Origin: Spirochaetota bacterium
GTDB taxonomy: Bacteria > Spirochaetota > UBA4802 > UB4802
DNA length: 37,189 bases
Direction: 5' to 3'
Assembly: GCA_026414805.1 (NCBI GenBank)
Contig: JAOAIH010000026.1
Location: 1 to 37,189 of the forward strand
Shown here: one piece after another, positions 27,852-37,189 of the stretch
Position numbering within the stretch: the first letter of the stretch is position 1
Layout: each line of letters opens with the position of its first letter
Notes under the pieces: generated by a model
What the model was told of the DNA's origin: nothing
The model's database searches: none
Seen by the model: the letters and a program-made list of their open reading frames with translations, nothing else
Position numbers and translations under genes: made by a program

Positions 27852-28460
27852 ATGATAGTTAAAAGAGTGCTTATTATTATGTTAGCTATGTTATGGTGTA
27901 TAAGCTTTATACAGATTTTTTCTGTGCCACCATATATTGGCGATATATTTGGTATATATAAATCGGGTTATTTTAAAGAACTTGAAAGAAATATGTATAT
28001 TATTACCGATAGTTTTTTGCACATTAAGACAATGTCAAAAGCTGAGTATGCCTGGATATACCTTAAAGATTTGCAGAAGCGTTTTGGTATAAACATTCAC
28101 GTGTATGATTCCATGGGAAATTTAATACAAGCTCCTGGCATGTCGGAGATAGTTAATAATAGGGATGTCTTGAATGTGATAAATGATATAAAGCCCCAGC
28201 CAAAGTTTGCTGTACACGGACGTATGTACAATGGAGTTATACCTGTATACAGGAAAACAGAATGTAATTTTTGCCATCAGCCTTCTCGTAAACCAGTGTT
28301 AGGCGTAATTGAATTTGCAATCCCGTTTGATGGTTATATTTACTATACCTCAGAGCGAACAATATTATTTATTATTATTACATTTGCTATCAGCGTTTTA
28401 TTGTTTGTGGTTATACGGTGGAATCCATATAAGGATATTAATGAACTGTTTGACAAATAG
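27852..28460 (+). CDS. Haem-c-binding membrane sensor-like protein without an output domain
   Basis: A 202-residue protein with membrane helices at about residues 5-24 and 168-187 enclosing a periplasmic domain that contains one haem-c site, CNFCH at C138-H142. VYDSMGNLI and VIPVYRKTECNFCHQP with VLGVIEFAIPFD recall the periplasmic haem sensor domain (DUF3365/Tll0287-like) of many chemotaxis and kinase receptors. Here the protein stops 14 residues after the second helix, so no kinase or methyl-accepting region follows. It could pass a redox signal to a partner or carry electrons. It lies in the dprA operon. Confidence 0.7.
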   Translation: MIVKRVLIIMLAMLWCISFIQIFSVPPYIGDIFGIYKSGYFKELERNMYIITDSFLHIKTMSKAEYAWIYLKDLQKRFGINIHVYDSMGNLIQAPGMSEIVNNRDVLNVINDIKPQPKFAVHGRMYNGVIPVYRKTECNFCHQPSRKPVLGVIEFAIPFDGYIYYTSERTILFIIITFAISVLLFVVIRWNPYKDINELFDK

Positions 28461-28522
28461 TGAAAGGTATTAATATTCATACGATATTTCAGGGTTAATG
28501 GTGATAGTGGATATACTATTCA

Positions 28523-28534
28523 GTAACTATCGCA
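28523..28534 (-). repeat. Iterated word, variant TGCGATAGTTAC
   Basis: The only clearly intergenic copy, between the haem-c membrane protein gene and topA; one mismatch. Confidence 0.6.
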
Positions 28535-28561
28535 TAAAAATTAGCATATAAGGAAATAGCC

Positions 28562-30664
28562 ATGGCTGAACATAGAAAAACACTTGTGATTGTTGAGTCA
28601 CCAACAAAAGCAAAAACAATAAATAAATATTTGGGGAAAGATTACATCATTGCGTCGTCAATGGGGCATATCATTGATTTGCCAAAATCACGGTTGGCTG
28701 TTGATGTGAATAATGATTTTAAGCCTGAATATATCCCTATACGAGGGAAGGCAAAAATAATAAATGATTTAAAAAAGAAAGCTTTTGAAGCTAAAAATGT
28801 TTTACTGGCAACTGACCCTGACCGTGAAGGCGAAGCAATATCGTGGCATCTTGCAAATGTTTTGAAAGATAAAAATAATGATATCAAACGCATTGAATTT
28901 CATGAGATAACCGAAGATGCAATTAAAGAAGCAGTGAAGAATGCCCGGGACATTAACATGGATTTAGTCAATGCACAGCAGGCACGACGAATCCTTGACA
29001 GGCTTGTTGGATATTATTTAAGCCCAATATTGTGGAAGAAAGTTAAAAAGGGGTTATCTGCAGGAAGAGTACAGTCGGTTGCATTGCGGGTTATTTGCGA
29101 GCGCGAAAAGGAAATAGAAAACTTTATTCCACAAGAGTATTGGACGCTTGATGCCTTATTTGAACATCAAAAGCAGGAATTTACTGCAACACTGGTATCG
29201 GAAAATGGGAAAAAAATTGAATTAAAAACAAAAAATGATGTTGATAGGGTGCTCTCGCTCATAGAGGGAAAACCATTTACAGTTATTAATGTTGAACAAA
29301 AAGAAAGACGAAGAAAACCACAGCCACCGTATATCACCAGCAAATTGCAGCAGGATGCTGCCAGGCGATTAGGATTTTCCACTAGTAAAACCATGATGGT
29401 GGCACAGCAATTGTACGAAGGAGTAAACATTTCCGGTGAAGGGCAGGTTGGTTTGATTACCTATATGCGTACTGATTCTACGCGAATTGCACCTGCTGCA
29501 TTAGCATCAGTGAGGGAATATTTAAATAAAAATTTTACCAAAGAGTATATACCAGAAACGCCTAACTCATATCCAAATAAAAAAGGTGCACAGGATGCAC
29601 ATGAAGCAATACGGCCAACAAATGTGTTCAGGACTCCTGAATCAATTAAAAATGATCTAACTCCTGATCAATATAAATTATATTCGTTGATATGGAGGCG
29701 CTTTGTTTCGTCGCAAATGACGCCCGAGGTTTCACAAGTGGTTACTGTAACACTGAAAGTTGAAGATTTTGAATTCAGAGCAACCGGTAGCAGAGTATTA
29801 TTTAATGGATTTACAGCAATAGAAAAAGAAGAAAGTGCCGAAAAGAAATTATTGCCACAACTAGAAACAGGCCTGGTTCTTATGCCAAAAGCATTTGATC
29901 CACAGCAACATTTCACTTCACCACCTCCACGCTACAATGAAGCGTCGTTGGTTAAATTTTTGGAAGAATCAGGGATTGGCCGTCCTTCAACATACGCACC
30001 TACTATCAATACGTTGTTCAAGCGTTATTATGTTGTAAAACGTGGGAAACAGTTAGTGCCAACGGTATTGGGCAGGTTGGTAAATGACATTATGGTTTCG
30101 TATTTTGAATCGCTTATTAATATTGATTTTACTGCACAGATGGAAGAAAAGCTTGATTTAATTGAGGAAGCAAAGAATGATTGGGTTAGCATGATAAAGG
30201 AATTTTACGAACCTTTCAAGTCAACAGTTCATCATGCCGAAGAACATATTGAGGATATGAAAAATATTTTAGATGAAGAAACAGACCTGTTGTGCGAAAA
30301 ATGCGGCAGCAAAATGGTAAAGCGTTTGGGGAAATTTGGCTTTTTCCTTGCTTGTTCTGCATTTCCAAAATGTTCAAATGCAAAACCATTGCCACTTGGC
30401 AAATGCCCCAAATGCGGTGGTGATATTATTAAACGCACCTCAAAACGACGTGGATCATTTTTTGCCTGCAACAGGTATCCTGAATGTGATTTTGCCACCC
30501 GCGAGCAAGCGTCAGAACATGCATGTCCAAAATGCGGTAGTCTGCTTTTTATCCGTAAGATAAAGAAAAAAGGTGAGATGCTTGTATGCTTAAATGAGCA
30601 ATGTGGGTATACGGTTACACTTCTGGATGAAGATAAAACGGATGCTGAAGTACAAGTAAGCTAA
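28562..30664 (+). CDS. topA: DNA topoisomerase I
   Basis: A type IA topoisomerase that relaxes negative supercoils. The TOPRIM domain starts LVIVESPTKAKTI with catalytic E12, and D85/D87 are in TDPDREGEA; the nucleophile Y301 is in GLITYMRTDSTRI. Three C-terminal zinc ribbons follow: CEKC...CSAFPKC (about 577-605), CPKC...CNRYPEC (about 618-643) and CPKC...CLNEQC (about 657-682). 700 residues is standard. AAGGA precedes the ATG. The order topA-xerC-hslV-hslU is common in bacteria. Confidence 0.98.
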   Translation: MAEHRKTLVIVESPTKAKTINKYLGKDYIIASSMGHIIDLPKSRLAVDVNNDFKPEYIPIRGKAKIINDLKKKAFEAKNVLLATDPDREGEAISWHLANVLKDKNNDIKRIEFHEITEDAIKEAVKNARDINMDLVNAQQARRILDRLVGYYLSPILWKKVKKGLSAGRVQSVALRVICEREKEIENFIPQEYWTLDALFEHQKQEFTATLVSENGKKIELKTKNDVDRVLSLIEGKPFTVINVEQKERRRKPQPPYITSKLQQDAARRLGFSTSKTMMVAQQLYEGVNISGEGQVGLITYMRTDSTRIAPAALASVREYLNKNFTKEYIPETPNSYPNKKGAQDAHEAIRPTNVFRTPESIKNDLTPDQYKLYSLIWRRFVSSQMTPEVSQVVTVTLKVEDFEFRATGSRVLFNGFTAIEKEESAEKKLLPQLETGLVLMPKAFDPQQHFTSPPPRYNEASLVKFLEESGIGRPSTYAPTINTLFKRYYVVKRGKQLVPTVLGRLVNDIMVSYFESLINIDFTAQMEEKLDLIEEAKNDWVSMIKEFYEPFKSTVHHAEEHIEDMKNILDEETDLLCEKCGSKMVKRLGKFGFFLACSAFPKCSNAKPLPLGKCPKCGGDIIKRTSKRRGSFFACNRYPECDFATREQASEHACPKCGSLLFIRKIKKKGEMLVCLNEQCGYTVTLLDEDKTDAEVQVS

Positions 30665-30669
30665 ACAGT

Positions 30670-31575
30670 ATGGACCACTATATTGATAAATTCATTCAAT
30701 ATCTTATTGCCGAAAAAAATGCTTCGCCTTTGACTGTTGAATCGTATGGCAAGGATTTGCATCAGTTTGTACATTTTCTGGAAAGCAATGGGCAATGCCC
30801 GGTAACTATCGCCACAATAACAACTGAAACAATCCGTGATTTTATTGATTATTGCTTTGAATTGGGAAATGAACTATCTACAATTGAGCGCAAAGTTGCA
30901 ACATTAAAATCGTTTTTTAAATACCTTGAGTTCCATAATTATATTGAACATAACCCAGCTCGCCAGATTCATTATTCAAAACACAGTAAATTCCTTCCCA
31001 CTTTTTTAACCTTTGATCAGATACAGAAACTGACATCATTTGAATGCAAAAGCTTTAGTGACTATCGTGATAAAGCACTGCTTGAAGTTTTTTACTCAAC
31101 AGGTGCACGTGTTTCGGAAATTGCTAATGCTGATGTTGAAGATTGTGATTGTGTGTCTAAAAGATTGAAAGTGATGGGGAAAGGTTCAAAGGAAAGAATT
31201 GTTTTTTTGAATGATACTGCAATTGTGTCATTGCAGAAATATTTTGACGAACGCAGAAAAAAGTTTGGTACAATAACCCAACCGCTCTTTGTAAATAATA
31301 ATGGCAAACGATTGACAACTAGAGGTATTTTTTATATTATTGATAAAAGAGCTAACCAGGCGCATTTGTGGAAATCAGTAACACCTCATGTGTTGCGTCA
31401 CAGTTTTGCAACTGAGTTGCTCAACAGGGGTGCAGACATTAAAGCTGTGCAGGATATGTTGGGGCATGAGAGTATTTCTACAACACAGAAATATACTCAC
31501 ACTACAACACAGCGATTAAAAGAATTATACATGAAGTACCATCCCCATGCACACAGGAGAAATGATAATGAGTAG
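30670..31575 (+). CDS. xerC: Tyrosine recombinase XerC
   Basis: Resolves chromosome dimers at the dif site with XerD. All catalytic residues are present: R147 (STGARVSE), K171 (GKGSKER), H240 and R243 (HVLRH), H266 (GHESI) and the nucleophile Y275 (TQKYTH). The N-terminal SAM-like core-binding domain spans about 1-90. 301 residues is normal. It follows topA by 5 bases and overlaps hslV by 8. Without the partner recombinase or the dif site in the window, XerC rather than XerD is inferred from the topA-hslVU context. It contains a GGCGATAGTTAC word at 30802-30813. Confidence 0.92.
   Translation: MDHYIDKFIQYLIAEKNASPLTVESYGKDLHQFVHFLESNGQCPVTIATITTETIRDFIDYCFELGNELSTIERKVATLKSFFKYLEFHNYIEHNPARQIHYSKHSKFLPTFLTFDQIQKLTSFECKSFSDYRDKALLEVFYSTGARVSEIANADVEDCDCVSKRLKVMGKGSKERIVFLNDTAIVSLQKYFDERRKKFGTITQPLFVNNNGKRLTTRGIFYIIDKRANQAHLWKSVTPHVLRHSFATELLNRGADIKAVQDMLGHESISTTQKYTHTTTQRLKELYMKYHPHAHRRNDNE
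30802..30813 (-). repeat. Iterated word GGCGATAGTTAC
   Basis: Exact copy, minus orientation, inside xerC, read on the gene strand as Val-Thr-Ile-Ala. Confidence 0.8.
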
Positions 31576-32113
31576 TACATCAATCCACGGTACCACGGTA
31601 CTTGCAATTAAAAAAGATAATGCATTTGCTATGGGATGTGACGGGCAGGTTACTCTTGGAGAAACAGTAATAAAAAGTAGAGCAGTGAAACTACGAAAGG
31701 TATATAACGATACAATACTTACCGGTTTTGCGGGCTCAGTAGCCGATGCGCTTACGCTGTTTGAACGGCTTGAGCAAAAGCTTGAATCGTATTCGGGTAA
31801 TATTCCGCGCTCGGTTGTGGAGCTTGCACGCGACTGGAGGTTGGACAGAGCTTTGCGCCGGCTTGAAGCTGTGCTTATTGTTGGCAACATACAGCATCTA
31901 TATTTAATAAGTGGCAATGGTGAAATTATTGAACCAGATGACGGCATAATTGGTATTGGTTCGGGTGGAAGTTATGCGATAGCTGCTGCACGAGCGCTTG
32001 TGCGCAATACCACATTAAGTGCATACGAAATAGTAAAACAATCATTGCTTATTGCATCTGAGATTTGCATTTATTCAAATAGTGCTATCACAATTGAGGA
32101 GATAAAAGCATAA
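31568..32113 (+). CDS. hslV: HslV peptidase subunit of the HslUV protease
   Basis: A threonine protease that forms a double hexamer and degrades proteins unfolded by HslU. From the chosen ATG the protein opens [18 protein letters not shown]; removal of eight residues would expose the catalytic Thr9 in GTTVLA, as in HslV proteins. [21 protein letters not shown] and [21 protein letters not shown] are family signatures. The ATG at 31568 has AGGAGA 7 bases upstream and is preferred over 31547. Its stop overlaps the hslU start by 1 base (TAATG). Confidence 0.96.
31975..31985 (+). repeat. Iterated word, variant TGCGATAGCTG
   Basis: Two mismatches, inside hslV, read as Ala-Ile-Ala. Confidence 0.5.
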
Positions 32114-33525
32114 TGGGTGATATACAAATACAGTTTACTGAAGATAGCGATCTTACGCCACGGCAAATAGTCAGTGAGCTTGATAAATACATTATAGGGC
32201 AAAAAGATGCAAAAAAATGTGTGGCGATAGCTCTAAGGAACAGAAGTCGCAGGAAAAAATTGGACCCTGAGCTTCAAGAAGAAATTGCACCAAAAAACAT
32301 CATCATGATAGGGCCCACTGGTGTTGGTAAAACTGAAATTGCACGACGATTGTCACGGCTGGTAAATGCACCATTTATAAAAGTTGAAATTACAAAATAC
32401 ACTGAAGTTGGATATGTGGGTAGAGATGTTGAATCTATGATACGTGATTTAACATCTATAGCTGTAAACATGGTGAAAAAAGAATACAGTGCCATGGTAG
32501 AAGAAAAAGCGTTGAAGAATGCGTATGAAAAAATTGTAGATATAATCATTCCCAAAAAGGGATTTGAATTTGATGAACGGCAGATTTCAGGTTTTCATGC
32601 TGACAGGGAATCTATCTTTGAGTCTGATACATTGTATGAGCAAATGCGCGCACAATATATGGAAGATTTAAAAAGCGGTAAACTTGATGATCTTGAAATT
32701 GAATATGAAGCAGAAGCACCTAATGTAATTCCGGTAATGTCTATTATGGGGGGCTCAGGGTTTGAAGATATTGACCTGCAGATTCAATCAATGCTTGGCG
32801 ATTTGATGCCCAAAAAATCGAAGCGCAAAAAAAGCACAGTAAAGGATGCACTGCGTATATTCATTGCCGAAGAAACAGAAAAGCTTATTGATATGGAAAA
32901 AGTGACTAATGAGGCAATCCGTCGTGTTGAGGATATGGGAATAGTATTTATTGATGAAATAGATAAAATTGCTGGTGCTGAATCAAAAACAGGACCCGAT
33001 GTATCGCGCCAGGGAGTGCAACGAGATTTGCTGCCTATTGTTGAGGGAACAACCGTCAATACAAAATACGGGCCGGTAAAAACAAATCATATATTGTTTA
33101 TTGCTGCTGGTGCGTTCAATATTTCAAAGCCTTCAGACCTTATACCCGAACTTCAGGGAAGGTTCCCAATTCGCGTGGAATTGTCTTCGTTAACCGAAGA
33201 GGATTTCAGGAAGATACTCACAGTGCCAAAAAATTCACTCACACTGCAGTACAAAGAGCTGCTTAAAACTGAAGGCGTTACAATAGAATTTACTGATGAT
33301 GGCATTGCCGAGATAGCAAAGACAGCACAGTTGCTTAATGAGGAACATGAAAACATAGGTGCCCGCAGGTTACACACAATTATGGAAAAGCTACTTGAAG
33401 ATATACTCTTTGATGCCCCGGATTTAGATGATGCTCATAAAAACTTTGTCATCAATGCTGAATTTGTAAAAGCCAAGTTAGGACCTACACTAAAGAATAA
33501 GGATTTATCACGGTATATTTTGTAG
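32113..33525 (+). CDS. hslU: HslU ATPase subunit of the HslUV protease
   Basis: An AAA+ unfoldase of the Clp/Hsp100 group. Walker A GPTGVGKT is at residues 67-74, the pore loop GYVGRD at 100-105, and Walker B IVFIDEID near 277-284. The I-domain (about 110-240) is intact, and the C-terminal RYIL matches the tail that docks into HslV. 470 residues is typical. Start codon overlaps the hslV stop, so the pair is translationally coupled. It carries a GGCGATAGCTC word at 32223-32233. Confidence 0.97.
32223..32233 (+). repeat. Iterated word GGCGATAGCTC
   Basis: Exact copy inside hslU, read as Ala-Ile-Ala. Confidence 0.8.
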
Positions 33526-33711
33526 TTATGGGTTTGTGTAAAATACATTGCCACCCCTTACAAGATACCATGATAGTGCAATATCAGATTACTTAGTGGA
33601 CAATTTTATAATTAAAAAAGAACTTCCACACATTTGTTAAAAACACACTCAAATAATATTTTGAATAATGAGCATGTCCAGGGTGGGTTTAAGTAATTTC
33701 ATAATTAATTA

Positions 33712-33739
33712 TTGACATTTTTATATAATATGTTATTAT
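33712..33739 (+). promoter_or_regulatory. Strong sigma-70-type promoter upstream of cas6
   Basis: TTGACA at 33712-33717 (perfect consensus), 16-base spacer, TATTAT at 33734-33739 (one mismatch to TATAAT). Transcription would start near 33746, about 250 bases before cas6, and would run through a terminator-like hairpin first. It is the best promoter in the window by eye. Confidence 0.7.
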
Positions 33740-33745
33740 ATACAA

Positions 33746-33955
33746 AATTGTAATGAAAAAATAAAAATAGTACTATTGGGTTTGCAAATACACTGAACAC
33801 ATAGATGCAACATATGCAGTGTGACTGTCAATATCTTGAAAAAAAATCTGATATCTTTATATATAGAATGCTCACAATTGTTTTATATCGATTGGTGATT
33901 CATTAATGTAGTAAAAAAATTACAGGTGGGACACTATACGTCCCACCTGCTTTTT
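33746..33955 (+). ncRNA. Candidate short leader RNA or attenuator before cas6
   Basis: A transcript from the 33712 promoter that stops at the hairpin would be about 210 bases. It has no convincing ribosome site or reading frame, and contains a 7-pair stem near 33789-33823. It could be a regulatory small RNA or an untranslated leader whose terminator is conditionally read through into the cas genes. This is inference from promoter and terminator geometry only. Confidence 0.35.
33923..33955 (+). terminator. Intrinsic terminator-like hairpin upstream of cas6
   Basis: A perfect 10-base stem (CAGGTGGGAC at 33923-33932 with GTCCCACCTG at 33940-33949), a 7-base loop and a C followed by five Ts. It is the only classical Rho-independent terminator I found in the window. 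It lies about 400 bases after hslU and 37 bases before cas6. Confidence 0.8.
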
Positions 33956-33992
33956 ATATTATAAACATAGATAAAATATAAGGAGTTTGATG

Positions 33993-34751
33993 ATGAGGTT
34001 TGCTGCATTCCTTGAATTTGAGAATGAACACGTACATATACCGCCATGGTACCGAATAGCTTTTGCATCGTTGTTAAAAGAGGCTTTGCGCAATGGCGAT
34101 AACACTGGTATGCTTTATTCATATTATTATGGTAATGATAAAAGGAATGTTCCAAAACCTTTTACTTTTTCAGTCAAGTTACATGTGGAAAAGGTATTAC
34201 AGGATTCTATACATAAATTACAGGTTGGCAAATTTGCAGCATTGTATGTTTCAAGCAATAATTATGAATTCATAATTGCTTTGTATAATGGATTGCAAAA
34301 ATTGAAAAAATATAATATCTATGGTTGCCCATTTTCAATTACACGATTTTCATTGCTTCCCAAAAGAGAATGTGGTTCAAAAGAGGTATTTTCTATTTTT
34401 TCGCCAATTGTAGTGCGTCGTGTAAGCGATGATAAAAAAGGAATAGGGTATGCTCACGTTAATGATGAAGATTTTATAAAAATGCTCAAGTACAGTATAG
34501 TAAGCCAGTGTAAGTTTCTGGGCGATAGTTACTGTGTAATGCCTGATGATATTATGATAAATACCAACGCAGCGTTCCCAGTTAAAATTCCTCATTATAA
34601 TAAAATGAATCCAGACAAACCTGAAATAATTGTAGCCACAGATGGAACAATAGAGATAGAGGCACCAAAGGAAGTAGTGCAACTATTATATGATAATGGC
34701 ATAGGCGCCCGACGCAGTCAAGGCTTTGGCATGCTGGAGGTGGCGGGATGA
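33993..34751 (+). CDS. cas6: CRISPR repeat endoribonuclease Cas6
   Basis: Cas6 cuts the pre-crRNA within each repeat. The 252-residue protein has two ferredoxin-like halves and ends with the glycine-rich signature GIGARRSQGFG at residues 236-246 (G-x-G-x5-GFG-type), the hallmark of Cas6. A His-rich stretch near residues 13-15 (HVH) may contain the catalytic His but this cannot be settled by eye. AAGGAG lies 7 bases before ATG 33993; an ATG at 33990 and a TTG at 33987 are in the same frame. It is the first gene of the cas operon. Base composition is like the housekeeping neighbours and one GGCGATAGTTAC word lies at 34521-34532. Confidence 0.9.
   Translation: MRFAAFLEFENEHVHIPPWYRIAFASLLKEALRNGDNTGMLYSYYYGNDKRNVPKPFTFSVKLHVEKVLQDSIHKLQVGKFAALYVSSNNYEFIIALYNGLQKLKKYNIYGCPFSITRFSLLPKRECGSKEVFSIFSPIVVRRVSDDKKGIGYAHVNDEDFIKMLKYSIVSQCKFLGDSYCVMPDDIMINTNAAFPVKIPHYNKMNPDKPEIIVATDGTIEIEAPKEVVQLLYDNGIGARRSQGFGMLEVAG
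34521..34532 (+). repeat. Iterated word GGCGATAGTTAC
   Basis: Exact copy inside cas6, read as Gly-Asp-Ser-Tyr. Confidence 0.8.
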
Positions 34752-34840
34752 AGAGTATTAAGTTTTCTCCGTGGGAGAGGTTGTGTAATGTGGTTTTCAA
34801 GTTTTTCAACAAGGTGGGGGTAAAACATGTGTTTAAATAA
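34748..34840 (+). CDS. Possible 30-residue protein between cas6 and cas8
   Basis: An ATGA overlap with the cas6 stop starts a 30-residue frame, MKSIKFSPWERLCNVVFKFF then NKVGVKHVFK, which ends 14 bases inside cas8. It is basic and amphipathic. Coupled translation is possible, but a frame this short may be chance; no homologue is known to me. Confidence 0.3.
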   Translation: MKSIKFSPWERLCNVVFKFFNKVGVKHVFK

Positions 34841-36293
34841 GAATGAATATGCCATTTATCCATCAAACTGGCTTATGAGGGCTGGTATTGTTGGATTTTT
34901 AAGAATTTTTAAAAATAATGGTAATAATACAAATTTAATAAATAATGATGGTAATCTGGAACTTGGTAACAATGAAATAGAAATGTTTTTTGAAAGATAT
35001 GCTTCATTTTTGAGCGAAGAAAATTTATATGGAACAATTAAAGAATTCTATAACAATTCATTTTTAGCTCAAGTTTGGCAAAAAGACATGAAAAGTACTT
35101 TGAGAGAGGTTGCTTTAGTTTTAGAGAATAATAACAACAATGACAATGACATAAAAACTTACGTTGGCTATGCTTCGGATAAAAAAATTAATAATCAAGA
35201 AACCTTACTCACTAAATTAAATAAAATTTTAAAAAAACTTAAAAAAGATGAATTAAGTCACAATAAGTTTTTAAAATATCAAGAAATCAGTGATGCTAAT
35301 TGTATATTTGAATCAATTAATAACTCTCAAGAAAACATGATAATAATTAATGGTATCGCTGATAAAAAAGGTAAAATTACTGACCAAGAAAAAGCAAAGT
35401 TGGATCAAATGCAATTTAATACAAATGATAAAACAAAAAGTTTTTTTGATTTAATTAACGATTTAAATAACATTTTGAATAAAAATGATACATTAAAAGA
35501 ATATTTAAAAAATATAATTCAAAATTATTTTTCAGAATCAAGCAAGATCGATGATGAAAAACTTATTTGTACTTTTTGTAATGAAAGAAAAGCAATTAAA
35601 AGAAATAAGGAGTATATCATACTAGATGAAGTGCACTTTACTCCTTTAGGGGCAAGCCCTTCTAATTTAGCAAATTTTTTCTGGGAAGGGAAACCAAATC
35701 TATTTATGTGTCTTCCCTGTGAATTAATAATTTACTGTGTTGCCTTTGGGTTTACGAAGTTCAATGGTAAATATTACTTTATTGATGCACCTGTAGATAT
35801 TCAGGAAATAAAAGAAATAAATGATATATGGAAAGACTGGTTAAATTCCAATTCCAGTGAGGCAACTTTAAAGAATTCATTTATAGAAATATTGAAAAAA
35901 ACTGAAAAAATGAAAGCAAAATGGAGCCTGCAAAATATTTCGATTATAGAAATAAATCCAGTATCTCCAAATACAAGTAATATTTATAACCTATCGATAT
36001 CTCCCGAGATTGCTTATGCAATTAGAAAACGAATTCAAAGTTATCCTTACTCTTTAAAAAAGATATATGATATATTTATTGAAAATTTATATTCTCAAAA
36101 GCCATTATATGATTTAGTTGGGCATTTATTATATGGTTACTTATCAAAAGATAAACTAAAGAATATAGATCAGACTAAATTAGAAAAGTCATCAATAGGA
36201 AGACTTATATTAAATGGAAATAAGTTATCTAACATGAAAGATGTATTATTTTTTTTAAAATTTCAGAAGGAGGTAGAAGATTATGGAAAATAA
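34827..36293 (+). CDS. cas8: Type I-B Cas8 large subunit, Cst1/CXXC-CXXC group
   Basis: The large subunit of Cascade recognises the PAM and starts R-loop formation. The 488-residue protein opens with YAIYPSNWLMRAGIVGFLRI, matching the conserved Cst1 N-terminus (YP-NWL-AG-VGFLR), and has two Cys pairs, CTFC at 248-251 and CLPC at 295-298, the zinc site that gave the CXXC-CXXC family its name. It is Asn/Lys-rich and strikingly AT-rich (6 G/C in 35461-35520 by hand count), unlike hslU or cas6. AAGGTGGGGG precedes the ATG. The C-terminus ends abruptly (KEVEDYGK) where the next small gene starts, so part of the usual C-terminal region may have been split off. Confidence 0.85.
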   Translation: MCLNKNEYAIYPSNWLMRAGIVGFLRIFKNNGNNTNLINNDGNLELGNNEIEMFFERYASFLSEENLYGTIKEFYNNSFLAQVWQKDMKSTLREVALVLENNNNNDNDIKTYVGYASDKKINNQETLLTKLNKILKKLKKDELSHNKFLKYQEISDANCIFESINNSQENMIIINGIADKKGKITDQEKAKLDQMQFNTNDKTKSFFDLINDLNNILNKNDTLKEYLKNIIQNYFSESSKIDDEKLICTFCNERKAIKRNKEYIILDEVHFTPLGASPSNLANFFWEGKPNLFMCLPCELIIYCVAFGFTKFNGKYYFIDAPVDIQEIKEINDIWKDWLNSNSSEATLKNSFIEILKKTEKMKAKWSLQNISIIEINPVSPNTSNIYNLSISPEIAYAIRKRIQSYPYSLKKIYDIFIENLYSQKPLYDLVGHLLYGYLSKDKLKNIDQTKLEKSSIGRLILNGNKLSNMKDVLFFLKFQKEVEDYGK

Positions 36294-36647
36294 CATTGAT
36301 AATGCTTTTAAAGAGGGAAAAACCATTAAAAATCTTCTTTTGGGTCTTCAAGGAGAATCTGCAAAGAAAACTATACAACGATTTTCCTATCGTTTCTTAG
36401 AAGGGCTGAAAAGCGCGATCAAGCAAGCCTTACCAGAGACATTATCACCTTGTATATGAATTTCGATGGAAGAAGTATACCATCGTTTTTTGTGGAGGTG
36501 CTTAAAGATTTTAATTCACTGAGTCAGATTGGCTATGCATTTTTACTTGGTCTTAATTCATATACAGGTAATGATCAAATTATAGCTTCTAGTTCTGAAA
36601 ATGAAGAGCTATCGCAAGAAGAAAATCTAAATAATGAGGAGGAATAA
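36283..36647 (+). CDS. Frameshifted small cas gene, probable Cas8 C-terminal part / Cas11-type small subunit
   Basis: From ATG 36283 a frame overlaps the cas8 stop by 11 bases and is led by AGAAGGAGG about 9 bases upstream; an in-frame TAG at 36274 shows initiation must be here. It reads MENNIDNAFKEGKTIKNLLL and on to YRFLEGLK, then hits TGA at 36459. One base gained in the A4 run at 36409-36412 joins it to the next frame as EGLKKRDQASLTRDIITLYM, continuing NFDGRSIPSFFVEVLKDF and QIGYAFLLGLN, giving about 121 residues. That text resembles what I recall of the C-terminus of Cst1 proteins (YRLLN-L-, LIRLYM-, YAFLLGL). Either the gene is truly broken, or the base is a sequencing error. It carries a degenerate repeat word at 36606-36616. 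Confidence 0.6.
36606..36616 (-). repeat. Iterated word, variant TGCGATAGCTC
   Basis: One mismatch, in the small frameshifted cas gene, read on the gene strand as Glu-Leu-Ser. Confidence 0.6.
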
Positions 36648-36648
36648 A

Positions 36649-37189
36649 ATGAAAGCTATAACCTTTACTATTGTTACACATAAGGCTCAAAGCCTTAACT
36701 ATGGAGAGACAATAGGCAATGTTTCAACTTTAAAAAAACTTACAATTGGTAATGACACGCCGAGAAGACTTATTACCTATGTTTCTGATAAAGCTTTAAA
36801 ATATGATATTAAAAAAAGAGGTAGAGAGAGTTTCGATTGGAGATTAATGGACAATAACGTATCAGAAATAATAAAAGGATGTGTTGAAAATATTCAAAAT
36901 GGTAAAGGCGAGTTTAATTATCAAAAATTTTATGAAGAAATGGTAAAAAATTATGAAGAATTTGATTTATTTGGTGGAATGTTTGCAGACATAGGCGGTG
37001 TTTATAGTGATAAAAAGAAGAAAAAAATAGAAATTAATAATGTAAAAGTAGAGGTTGATATTGATACAACAAAACTTCAACGTACTGCTCCAGTAAGGGT
37101 AACAAATGCTTATTCAATATCAGAATTTGTGTATGATAGTAATCTATTGCATGACATTGATGCATATAATAGGTATATCCAATTTACAG
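36649..37189 (+). CDS. cas7: Type I-B Cas7 backbone subunit, Cst2/DevR group (partial, runs off the right edge)
   Basis: The first 180 residues of a Cas7 protein: KAITFTIVTHKAQSLNYGET, then NDTPRRLITYVSDKALKYDI and DLFGGMFADIGG, the last being a conserved DevR/Cst2 motif, then LQRTAPVRVTNAYSIS. Cas7 forms the helical backbone of Cascade on the crRNA. AGGAGG lies 7 bases before the ATG, and the gene starts 1 base after the previous stop. The window ends inside it; cas5, cas3 and perhaps cas4-cas1-cas2 are expected next. Confidence 0.9.
   Translation, partial: MKAITFTIVTHKAQSLNYGETIGNVSTLKKLTIGNDTPRRLITYVSDKALKYDIKKRGRESFDWRLMDNNVSEIIKGCVENIQNGKGEFNYQKFYEEMVKNYEEFDLFGGMFADIGGVYSDKKKKKIEINNVKVEVDIDTTKLQRTAPVRVTNAYSISEFVYDSNLLHDIDAYNRYIQFT

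Follow-up and report, generated by a model that had tools for sequence, protein, structure and literature searches.

The locus between hslU and cas6

The window, by which is meant the whole stretch of 37,189 nucleotides analysed here, carries a topA-xerC-hslV-hslU run that ends with hslU and is followed, after a gap of 464 bp, by cas6, cas8b1 and cas7 of a type I-B CRISPR-Cas system cut by the contig end. The genome of the window (G000) and those of four relatives (G001-G004) form one genus, and the relatives named here are represented by assemblies of uncultured bacteria. The features of the gap and the genes that follow are:

33712..33739, plus strand: promoter P1, TTGACA-N16-TATTAT, interpreted as a promoter orphaned when a WYL regulator gene left this place
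33740..33912, no strand: degenerate spacer from P1 to the operator, where the lost WYL gene is presumed to have been, not conserved in the G000/G001/G003 alignment
33913..33919, plus strand: A7 tract, UP-element-like, aligned in 3/3 hslU-cas6 gaps
33923..33949, no strand: extended palindrome with perfect 10-bp arms, the outer 5 bp not conserved in G001, G002 and G003
33928..33944, no strand: 17-bp operator GGGACACTATACGTCCC, predicted from sequence as the binding site of a WYL regulator
33955..33960, plus strand: -10 box TATATT of P2, the predicted regulator-dependent cas promoter, with a start expected at about 33967; conserved TATATTATAA block
33980..33985, plus strand: cas6 ribosome-binding site AAGGAG, kept in G001 and CAGGAG in G003
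33993..34751, plus strand: cas6 (Pfam Cas_Cas6_C, E 2.7e-20), its ATG at 33993 conserved among relatives
34827..36293, plus strand: cas8b1/cst1, type I-B (TIGR01908, E 5.2e-25; PF09706)
36634..37188, plus strand: cas7, DevR family (PF01905, E 1e-11), cut by the contig end

P1 consists of TTGACA (33712-33717), a 16-nt spacer and TATTAT (33734-33739), with 11 of 12 consensus matches and a TG ahead of the -10 box. A promoter scan of 28000-37189 gave 39 promoter-like matches, P1 being one of two at 11/12, while shuffled sequence gave a mean of 42.1 matches of at least 9/12; the scan alone is therefore no proof, and P1 is taken as genuine because the element is conserved in relatives. The distance from P1 to the palindrome is 188, 124 and 48 bp in the three hslU-cas6 gaps.

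The arms of the hairpin (33923-33932 and 33940-33949) form 10 pairs, 7 of them G-C, around a loop of 7 and are followed by CTTTTTATAT, with the T run reaching 33955. The fold has an energy of -19.6 kcal/mol (z -6.86) and was equalled by 0/200 shuffles. Both elements are thus present as described in the sequence-only reading, which took them for the start and end of an attenuator or small RNA. That reading also held the hairpin to be the only classical terminator in the window. It is clearly the strongest terminator-like match, but scans of three slightly overlapping window stretches gave 9, 13 and 6 such matches, near the shuffle level of 4.7, 12.3 and 4.5. The A7 tract at 33913..33919 doubles as the T run of an apparent minus-strand terminator.

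No conserved small RNA was found between P1 and the hairpin, a stretch that varies in length and is not conserved in the G000/G001/G003 alignment, and Rfam covariance models gave 0 matches at gathering score over the whole window. When the leader was checked as a riboswitch or attenuator its fold had a z of -2.4, and no helix competing with the CAGGTGGGAC arm was seen in the MFE or centroid fold of 33746-33989.

The palindrome and its spacing to a -10 box

Relatives of cas6 were sought in 59 genomes, of which 13 were positive. All of the five nearest loci (G000, G001, G002, G003 and G017) have the pattern GGGACRN5YGTCCC upstream of cas6. The alignment of the hslU-cas6 gaps of G000, G001 and G003 has one kept block, with the order A7, AGGTGGGACAYTATAYGTCCC, spacer, TATATTATAA, AAGGAG and ATG, and the rest of the gap drifts. 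With as many as three mismatches allowed, GGGACAYTATAYGTCCC matches the window at the palindrome alone (1 found, 0.09 expected), and the site differs from the consensus by one base, TATAC for TATAT.

Other search patterns were given up. The strict extended palindrome, GGTGGGAC-N0-16-GTCCCACC, was found in the window only among 20 genomes, a seeming uniqueness that gave way to the core motif. Outside the genus and G017 the loose GGGACRN5YGTCCC matches were put down mostly to chance in GC-rich DNA, since the reversed control was equally frequent, and a 33-mer pattern with 3 mismatches was dominated by chance, with controls as high, and nothing was counted from it.

The 15-mer GGGACANTATNTGTC has 21 exact matches in six of seven genomes (G000-G004 and G017) and is absent from G005; the reversed 15-mer has 0 matches in all seven. 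Judged by the ORF lists, 20 matches are intergenic, and the one inside an ORF, on G000:C5, was taken as a coding chance. Downstream of the 15-mer lie cas6 in four cases (five with the one-base-changed site of the window), recC in four (G000, by Pfam; G001; G002 and G004, by protein similarity), an HmaA/DrmD-like helicase on G000:C61, a lipoprotein-like gene in G000 and G003 and small membrane ORFs in G001 and G002. The G004 genome gave no cas6 match and has a site before cas12a, identified by Pfam and as Cas12a by PADLOC. Six further sites precede a pair of genes for a small membrane protein and a beta-rich protein (twice each in G000 and G003, once each in G001 and G004).

The exact matches and the window site together make a set of 22 sites, some of which are orthologous and so not independent. 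Before this count a site on G000:C14 (3 mismatches, inside an ORF), one on G002:C46 (inside an ORF), one on G000:C55 (degenerate, no clear -10 box), one at G001:C114:22596 (3 mismatches) and one on G004:C55 (degenerate orthologue of the membrane/propeller site) were dropped. An earlier set of 23 sites differs in adding G000:C55 and G001:C114:22596 and omitting G000:C5.

The sequence TAnnnT begins at +9 to +11 from the 17-mer at 20/22 sites, and other 3-nt bins hold 0-7/22. The two misses are the coding site on G000:C5 and the recC site of G001, where the box is at +8. An upstream run of at least four A is present at 19 sites. A good -35 element is absent from 22/22 sites, the best match to TTGACA at the proper distance being 1-3/6, and the palindrome itself fills the -35 region, from about -39 to -23, an arrangement shared with promoters that depend on an activator. 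A palindrome over the -35 region at a fixed distance from the -10 box is the signature of a promoter and operator and not of a terminator. The sequence-only reading had seen no second promoter between the hairpin and cas6; TATATT at 33955-33960, exactly 10 nt past the palindrome, is the conserved -10 box. Its proposal that the element controls the cas operon is accepted as probable; the mechanism that it put forward is not supported. The expected P2 start at about 33967 is 26 bases ahead of the cas6 ATG.

The terminator-like part of the hairpin is less widespread. A T tail is found at 4/22 sites and a perfect outer stem together with a T tail in the window only. The terminator form, a G-C-rich stem with a U run, is absent from the other four of the five cas6 loci; the G017 site has a strong stem (-20.2 kcal/mol) without a T tail. 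The AGGT of the left flank occurs also at other palindrome sites.

The membrane/beta-rich pairs (L104:2787-4213, L106:946-2084, L109:4196-5672, L111:2165-3600, L051:5915-7126 and L114:2136-3364) combine a small membrane protein of about 90-110 aa with a beta-rich, propeller-like protein of 260-380 aa. The long form of the latter is predicted to be all-beta with a C-terminal helix (pTM 0.64), and the two members scanned had no Pfam or PADLOC match. The pair is a possible damage or defence module. Another pair, of a nucleotidyltransferase (PADLOC PDC-S09) and a HEPN-like partner, lies between operator and recC in G001 (L108:2773-3512), and a nucleotidyltransferase/HEPN-like pair resembling it lies between cas6 and cas8 in G002 (L019:8498-9282). 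The identities given by Pfam, PADLOC and other libraries here and elsewhere have the standing of annotations.

WYL genes and the origin of P1

The G017 palindrome has a WYL-domain gene on one side and cas6 on the other. The orthologous WYL genes of G001 and G000 each have a copy a few bases past the stop; in the genome of the window this gene is on another contig (G000:C76) and cut by the contig end. The regulator has HTH, WYL and WCX domains (PF08220/PF08279, PF13280 and PF25583 in P0001 and P0002). Its predicted model has a pLDDT of 76 and a pTM of only 0.46. The top Foldseek matches are 8tp8 (DriD, E 2e-13) and 9fnd (PafBC, E 7e-13), with TM-scores near 0.43 at the query pTM of 0.46, and the CapW and BrxR structures match more weakly. 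In an alignment of eight WYL sequences R167, R194 and R200 are invariant, and R194 and R200 align with arginines of PafBC. As a pointer to an ssDNA ligand of the WYL domain these conserved residues are suggestive only.

Relatives of the WYL protein were searched for in 392 Spirochaetota genomes at E 1e-25, with 37 positive, and 30 loci were checked for the palindrome. The form GACAN5TGTC lies at -2 to 51 bp from the WYL stop in 17/30 loci, and 21 occurrences were found in total in the 112,457 bp of the same loci. The 13 loci with no such palindrome right after the stop (one has a site upstream, 12 have none) include those of G002 and G003, of the same genus, and one, L200, that stops at the contig end. 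Outside the focal genus and G017, 12 of 14 WYL-adjacent sites have TAnnnT at +10 to +12, and almost none have it elsewhere. This independent phylum set is the strongest evidence that palindrome, promoter and WYL gene make up one unit.

The genes next past the WYL sites include cas3-HD (G307, G244 and G360), cas6 (G050) and small membrane peptides (G358 and G249). In G370 cas3-HD is again the next gene and the palindrome is upstream of the WYL gene. The G010 locus has GGACATTATATGTCC between a WYL gene of 33% identity and type I-C cas genes (cas5c and cas7). Scans of genome contigs gave four loci with the WYL alignment and no relatives with cas6.

The second WYL gene of G050 (C34), beside another cas6, has no such palindrome; it is a different WYL gene that lies directly ahead of cas6 (L152:59-1842), an arrangement which suggests another WYL-cas regulatory type. 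At L190:2486-2638 and L199:2496-2663 the WYL operator is ahead of short peptides (50-56 aa) that have a single hydrophobic stretch. These are reminiscent of DidA, presented in PMC4211646 as a division inhibitor induced by DriD. The WYL relatives at L150:5080-10501 and L178 (G046 and G105) have a divergent upstream region with the variant palindrome AGGAACATATAGTTCCT, which in L150 stands before a gene of 270 aa followed by two large GTPase-like genes.

The WYL start in G001, G002, G003 and G004 is preceded, at a distance of 54-73 bp, by a promoter of the P1 type, and in G001 and G003 the gap between hslU and cas6 contains the P1 motif as well. Downstream of hslU in G004 come TTGACA-N16-TATAAT and then the WYL gene, the end of which is just upstream of the palindrome and cas12a on a second contig, the join of the two contigs being inferred. 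With blastn the WYL-start region of G004 matches the gaps of G000 (39 bp, 79%, E 7e-6), G001 (53 bp, 89%, E 6e-13) and G003 (87 bp, 71%, E 7e-6), and the G003 gap retains a degraded WYL ribosome site and start. A tblastn search of the window's gap for a relic of WYL coding sequence gave nothing convincing. Since a P1-type promoter precedes the WYL gene and the WYL-start region of G004 matches the gaps, the best reading is that a departed WYL gene once had P1 on its left and the hairpin on its right, the operator-promoter having apparently stayed with cas. The post-hslU locus of G004 (L114:7706-11633) apparently holds type V-A cas12a where sister species have type I-B, suggesting an exchange of effectors under a conserved operator-promoter.

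Regulation of the cas operon

With a probability of roughly 0.8 the palindrome serves as operator and promoter for a WYL regulator resembling DriD and PafBC; this regulator, probably an activator, would drive the cas operon from about 33967. A homodimeric HTH-WYL-WCX factor, encoded at G000:C76, would bind the palindrome at 33928-33944 in the place of a -35 element, between the upstream A tract and the -10 box exactly 10 nt downstream, and would enable the housekeeping RNA polymerase to initiate near 33967 and transcribe cas6-cas8-cas7. Single-stranded DNA from damage or phage replication would be the likely trigger, a signal we infer by analogy with DriD, PafBC and SiwR. The same protein would control recBCD, the DrmD/HmaA-like helicase and the small-membrane-protein/propeller pairs. 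P1, which is homologous to the promoters of WYL genes, would be a remnant of the WYL gene's own constitutive promoter, the gene itself having moved away from an ancestral position between hslU and cas. The conserved palindrome with its fixed spacing, the missing -35, the A tract and the adjacency to WYL genes and cas genes are seen directly in the sequences; binding by the WYL protein, its homodimeric form and activation over repression are predictions. Activation is favoured on three grounds: the sites have no -35 element; the promoter of the WYL gene itself is near consensus and carries no operator; and DriD, PafBC and SiwR, the nearest proteins to have been characterised, activate from sites that are placed similarly within the promoter.

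The same WYL protein could instead be a repressor, its dimer sitting on the -35 region and blocking the promoter until a ligand frees it. The palindrome does overlap the promoter, and the predicted fold is matched by CapW and BrxR, which are WYL repressors, of CBASS and BREX respectively. These resemble the spirochaete protein as WYL regulators of anti-phage systems and differ from it in being repressors and in their weaker fold match. In addition, PMC4012209 describes Sll7009 as regulating a type I-D CRISPR system negatively. Repression is nevertheless unlikely: with 1-3/6 matches at all 22 sites the unaided promoter would be weak, the near-consensus and operator-free promoter of the WYL gene fits a constitutively made activator that responds to a ligand, and the closest folds are those of the activators DriD and PafBC.

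An intrinsic terminator or attenuator, at which P1 RNA is stopped so that cas expression needs read-through or anti-termination, would account for the 10-bp stem of -19.6 kcal/mol, the T run and the promoter upstream. It is very improbable, as G001, G002 and G003 keep neither the outer stem nor the T tail, the T tail is found at 4/22 sites, the distance to the -10 box is fixed, the stretch from P1 to the hairpin is not conserved and the sites lie directly after WYL genes and ahead of unrelated genes. The anti-terminator pairing to be looked for under the sequence-only reading was not evident in the fold of 33746-33989, and the small-RNA form of its mechanism lacks support, with no Rfam match and with P1 matching the promoter of a WYL gene. 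P1 transcripts could still terminate at the hairpin and T run in this species. That the palindrome, with P2 as the cas promoter, also terminates stray P1 transcripts here and nowhere else is compatible with the operator-promoter reading, and is possible although the odds are somewhat against it: P1 is still near consensus and the outer stem and T tail coincide only in the window, but a feature of a single species may be a chance drift of the operator flanks, the AGGT left flank being found elsewhere too. Finally, the position of the hairpin just upstream of cas6 would suit an RNA target of Cas6 that mimics a CRISPR repeat and serves autoregulation, an idea that is hardly credible given that the repeat GTTTGAGCTTCCAATAGTGGGATTTAAAG of the G002 array, the sole array compared, is unlike the hairpin and that the site is also ahead of cas12a and non-cas genes.

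Preference for an operator of a WYL activator agrees with what is described for known WYL systems, as far as the excerpts of the papers cited here go. DriD of Caulobacter is an HTH-WYL-WCX protein with a pseudo-palindromic site over a poor -35 at a fixed distance from the -10 box (PMC12340889), and its regulon comprises few genes, including repair genes and the small membrane protein DidA of 71 aa with one TM (PMC12340889, PMC4211646). It differs in its host phylum and, in those excerpts, in a site of 20 bp; the spirochaete regulon holds CRISPR-Cas, recBCD and a DrmD/HmaA-like helicase, its site is typically just 3' of the regulator gene, and ssDNA sensing is here proposed by analogy. SiwR of Mycobacterium smegmatis also has a palindrome between the regulator gene and the activated operon, from -35 to -10, but the palindrome is of 19 bp and the excerpt describes control of two DinB-like genes and no defence genes (PMC10693628). 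The mycobacterial PafBC is likewise a WYL/WCX activator of promoters without the usual -35 (sigma adaptation), triggered by ssDNA (PMC11804915); it is a heterodimer with a non-palindromic site (PMC6789036) and a regulon of more than 150 genes (PMC10693628). WYL proteins have been predicted as regulators of CRISPR-Cas (Makarova et al. 2014, PMC4012209). For Sll7009 the cited text describes neither an operator nor a promoter architecture; here one operator serves I-B, I-C and V-A loci plus recBCD.

Already described, in the portions of the literature just cited, are thus WYL activators with palindromes over the -35 and the predicted WYL control of CRISPR loci (PMC4012209). Searches of open-licence papers turned up no account of this operator, no cas promoter that depends on a WYL protein and no WYL regulon in which cas and recBCD are combined, and the CRISPR/RecBCD regulon and its operator appear to be new. 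More tentatively, and with chances that we put a little below even, the Spirochaetota would have an SOS-like, LexA-independent regulon of damage and defence. In it an ssDNA-sensing WYL activator would use one portable promoter, A-tract - GGGACAYTATATGTCMY - N10 - TATATT, to switch CRISPR-Cas (I-B, I-C or V-A), RecBCD, a DrmD/HmaA-like helicase and the membrane/propeller modules. The operator-promoter would outlast both exchange of the effector and relocation of the regulator, and immunity would be induced by the ssDNA of phage infection and of RecBCD activity.

The control of when bacteria make CRISPR proteins is largely an open question, to which the finding contributes an exact site, a promoter geometry, a candidate regulator and its putative partner genes, all predicted from sequence. 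The recurrent site also draws attention to uncharacterised gene pairs as possible modules of defence or of the damage response. In E. coli RecBCD generates spacer precursors, and co-regulation of cas and RecBCD would link immunity to the enzyme that makes them. If the activator reading holds, CRISPR and DNA-repair genes would be switched on together in a group of spirochaetes, and immunity would be tied to the sensing of DNA damage or of invading DNA.
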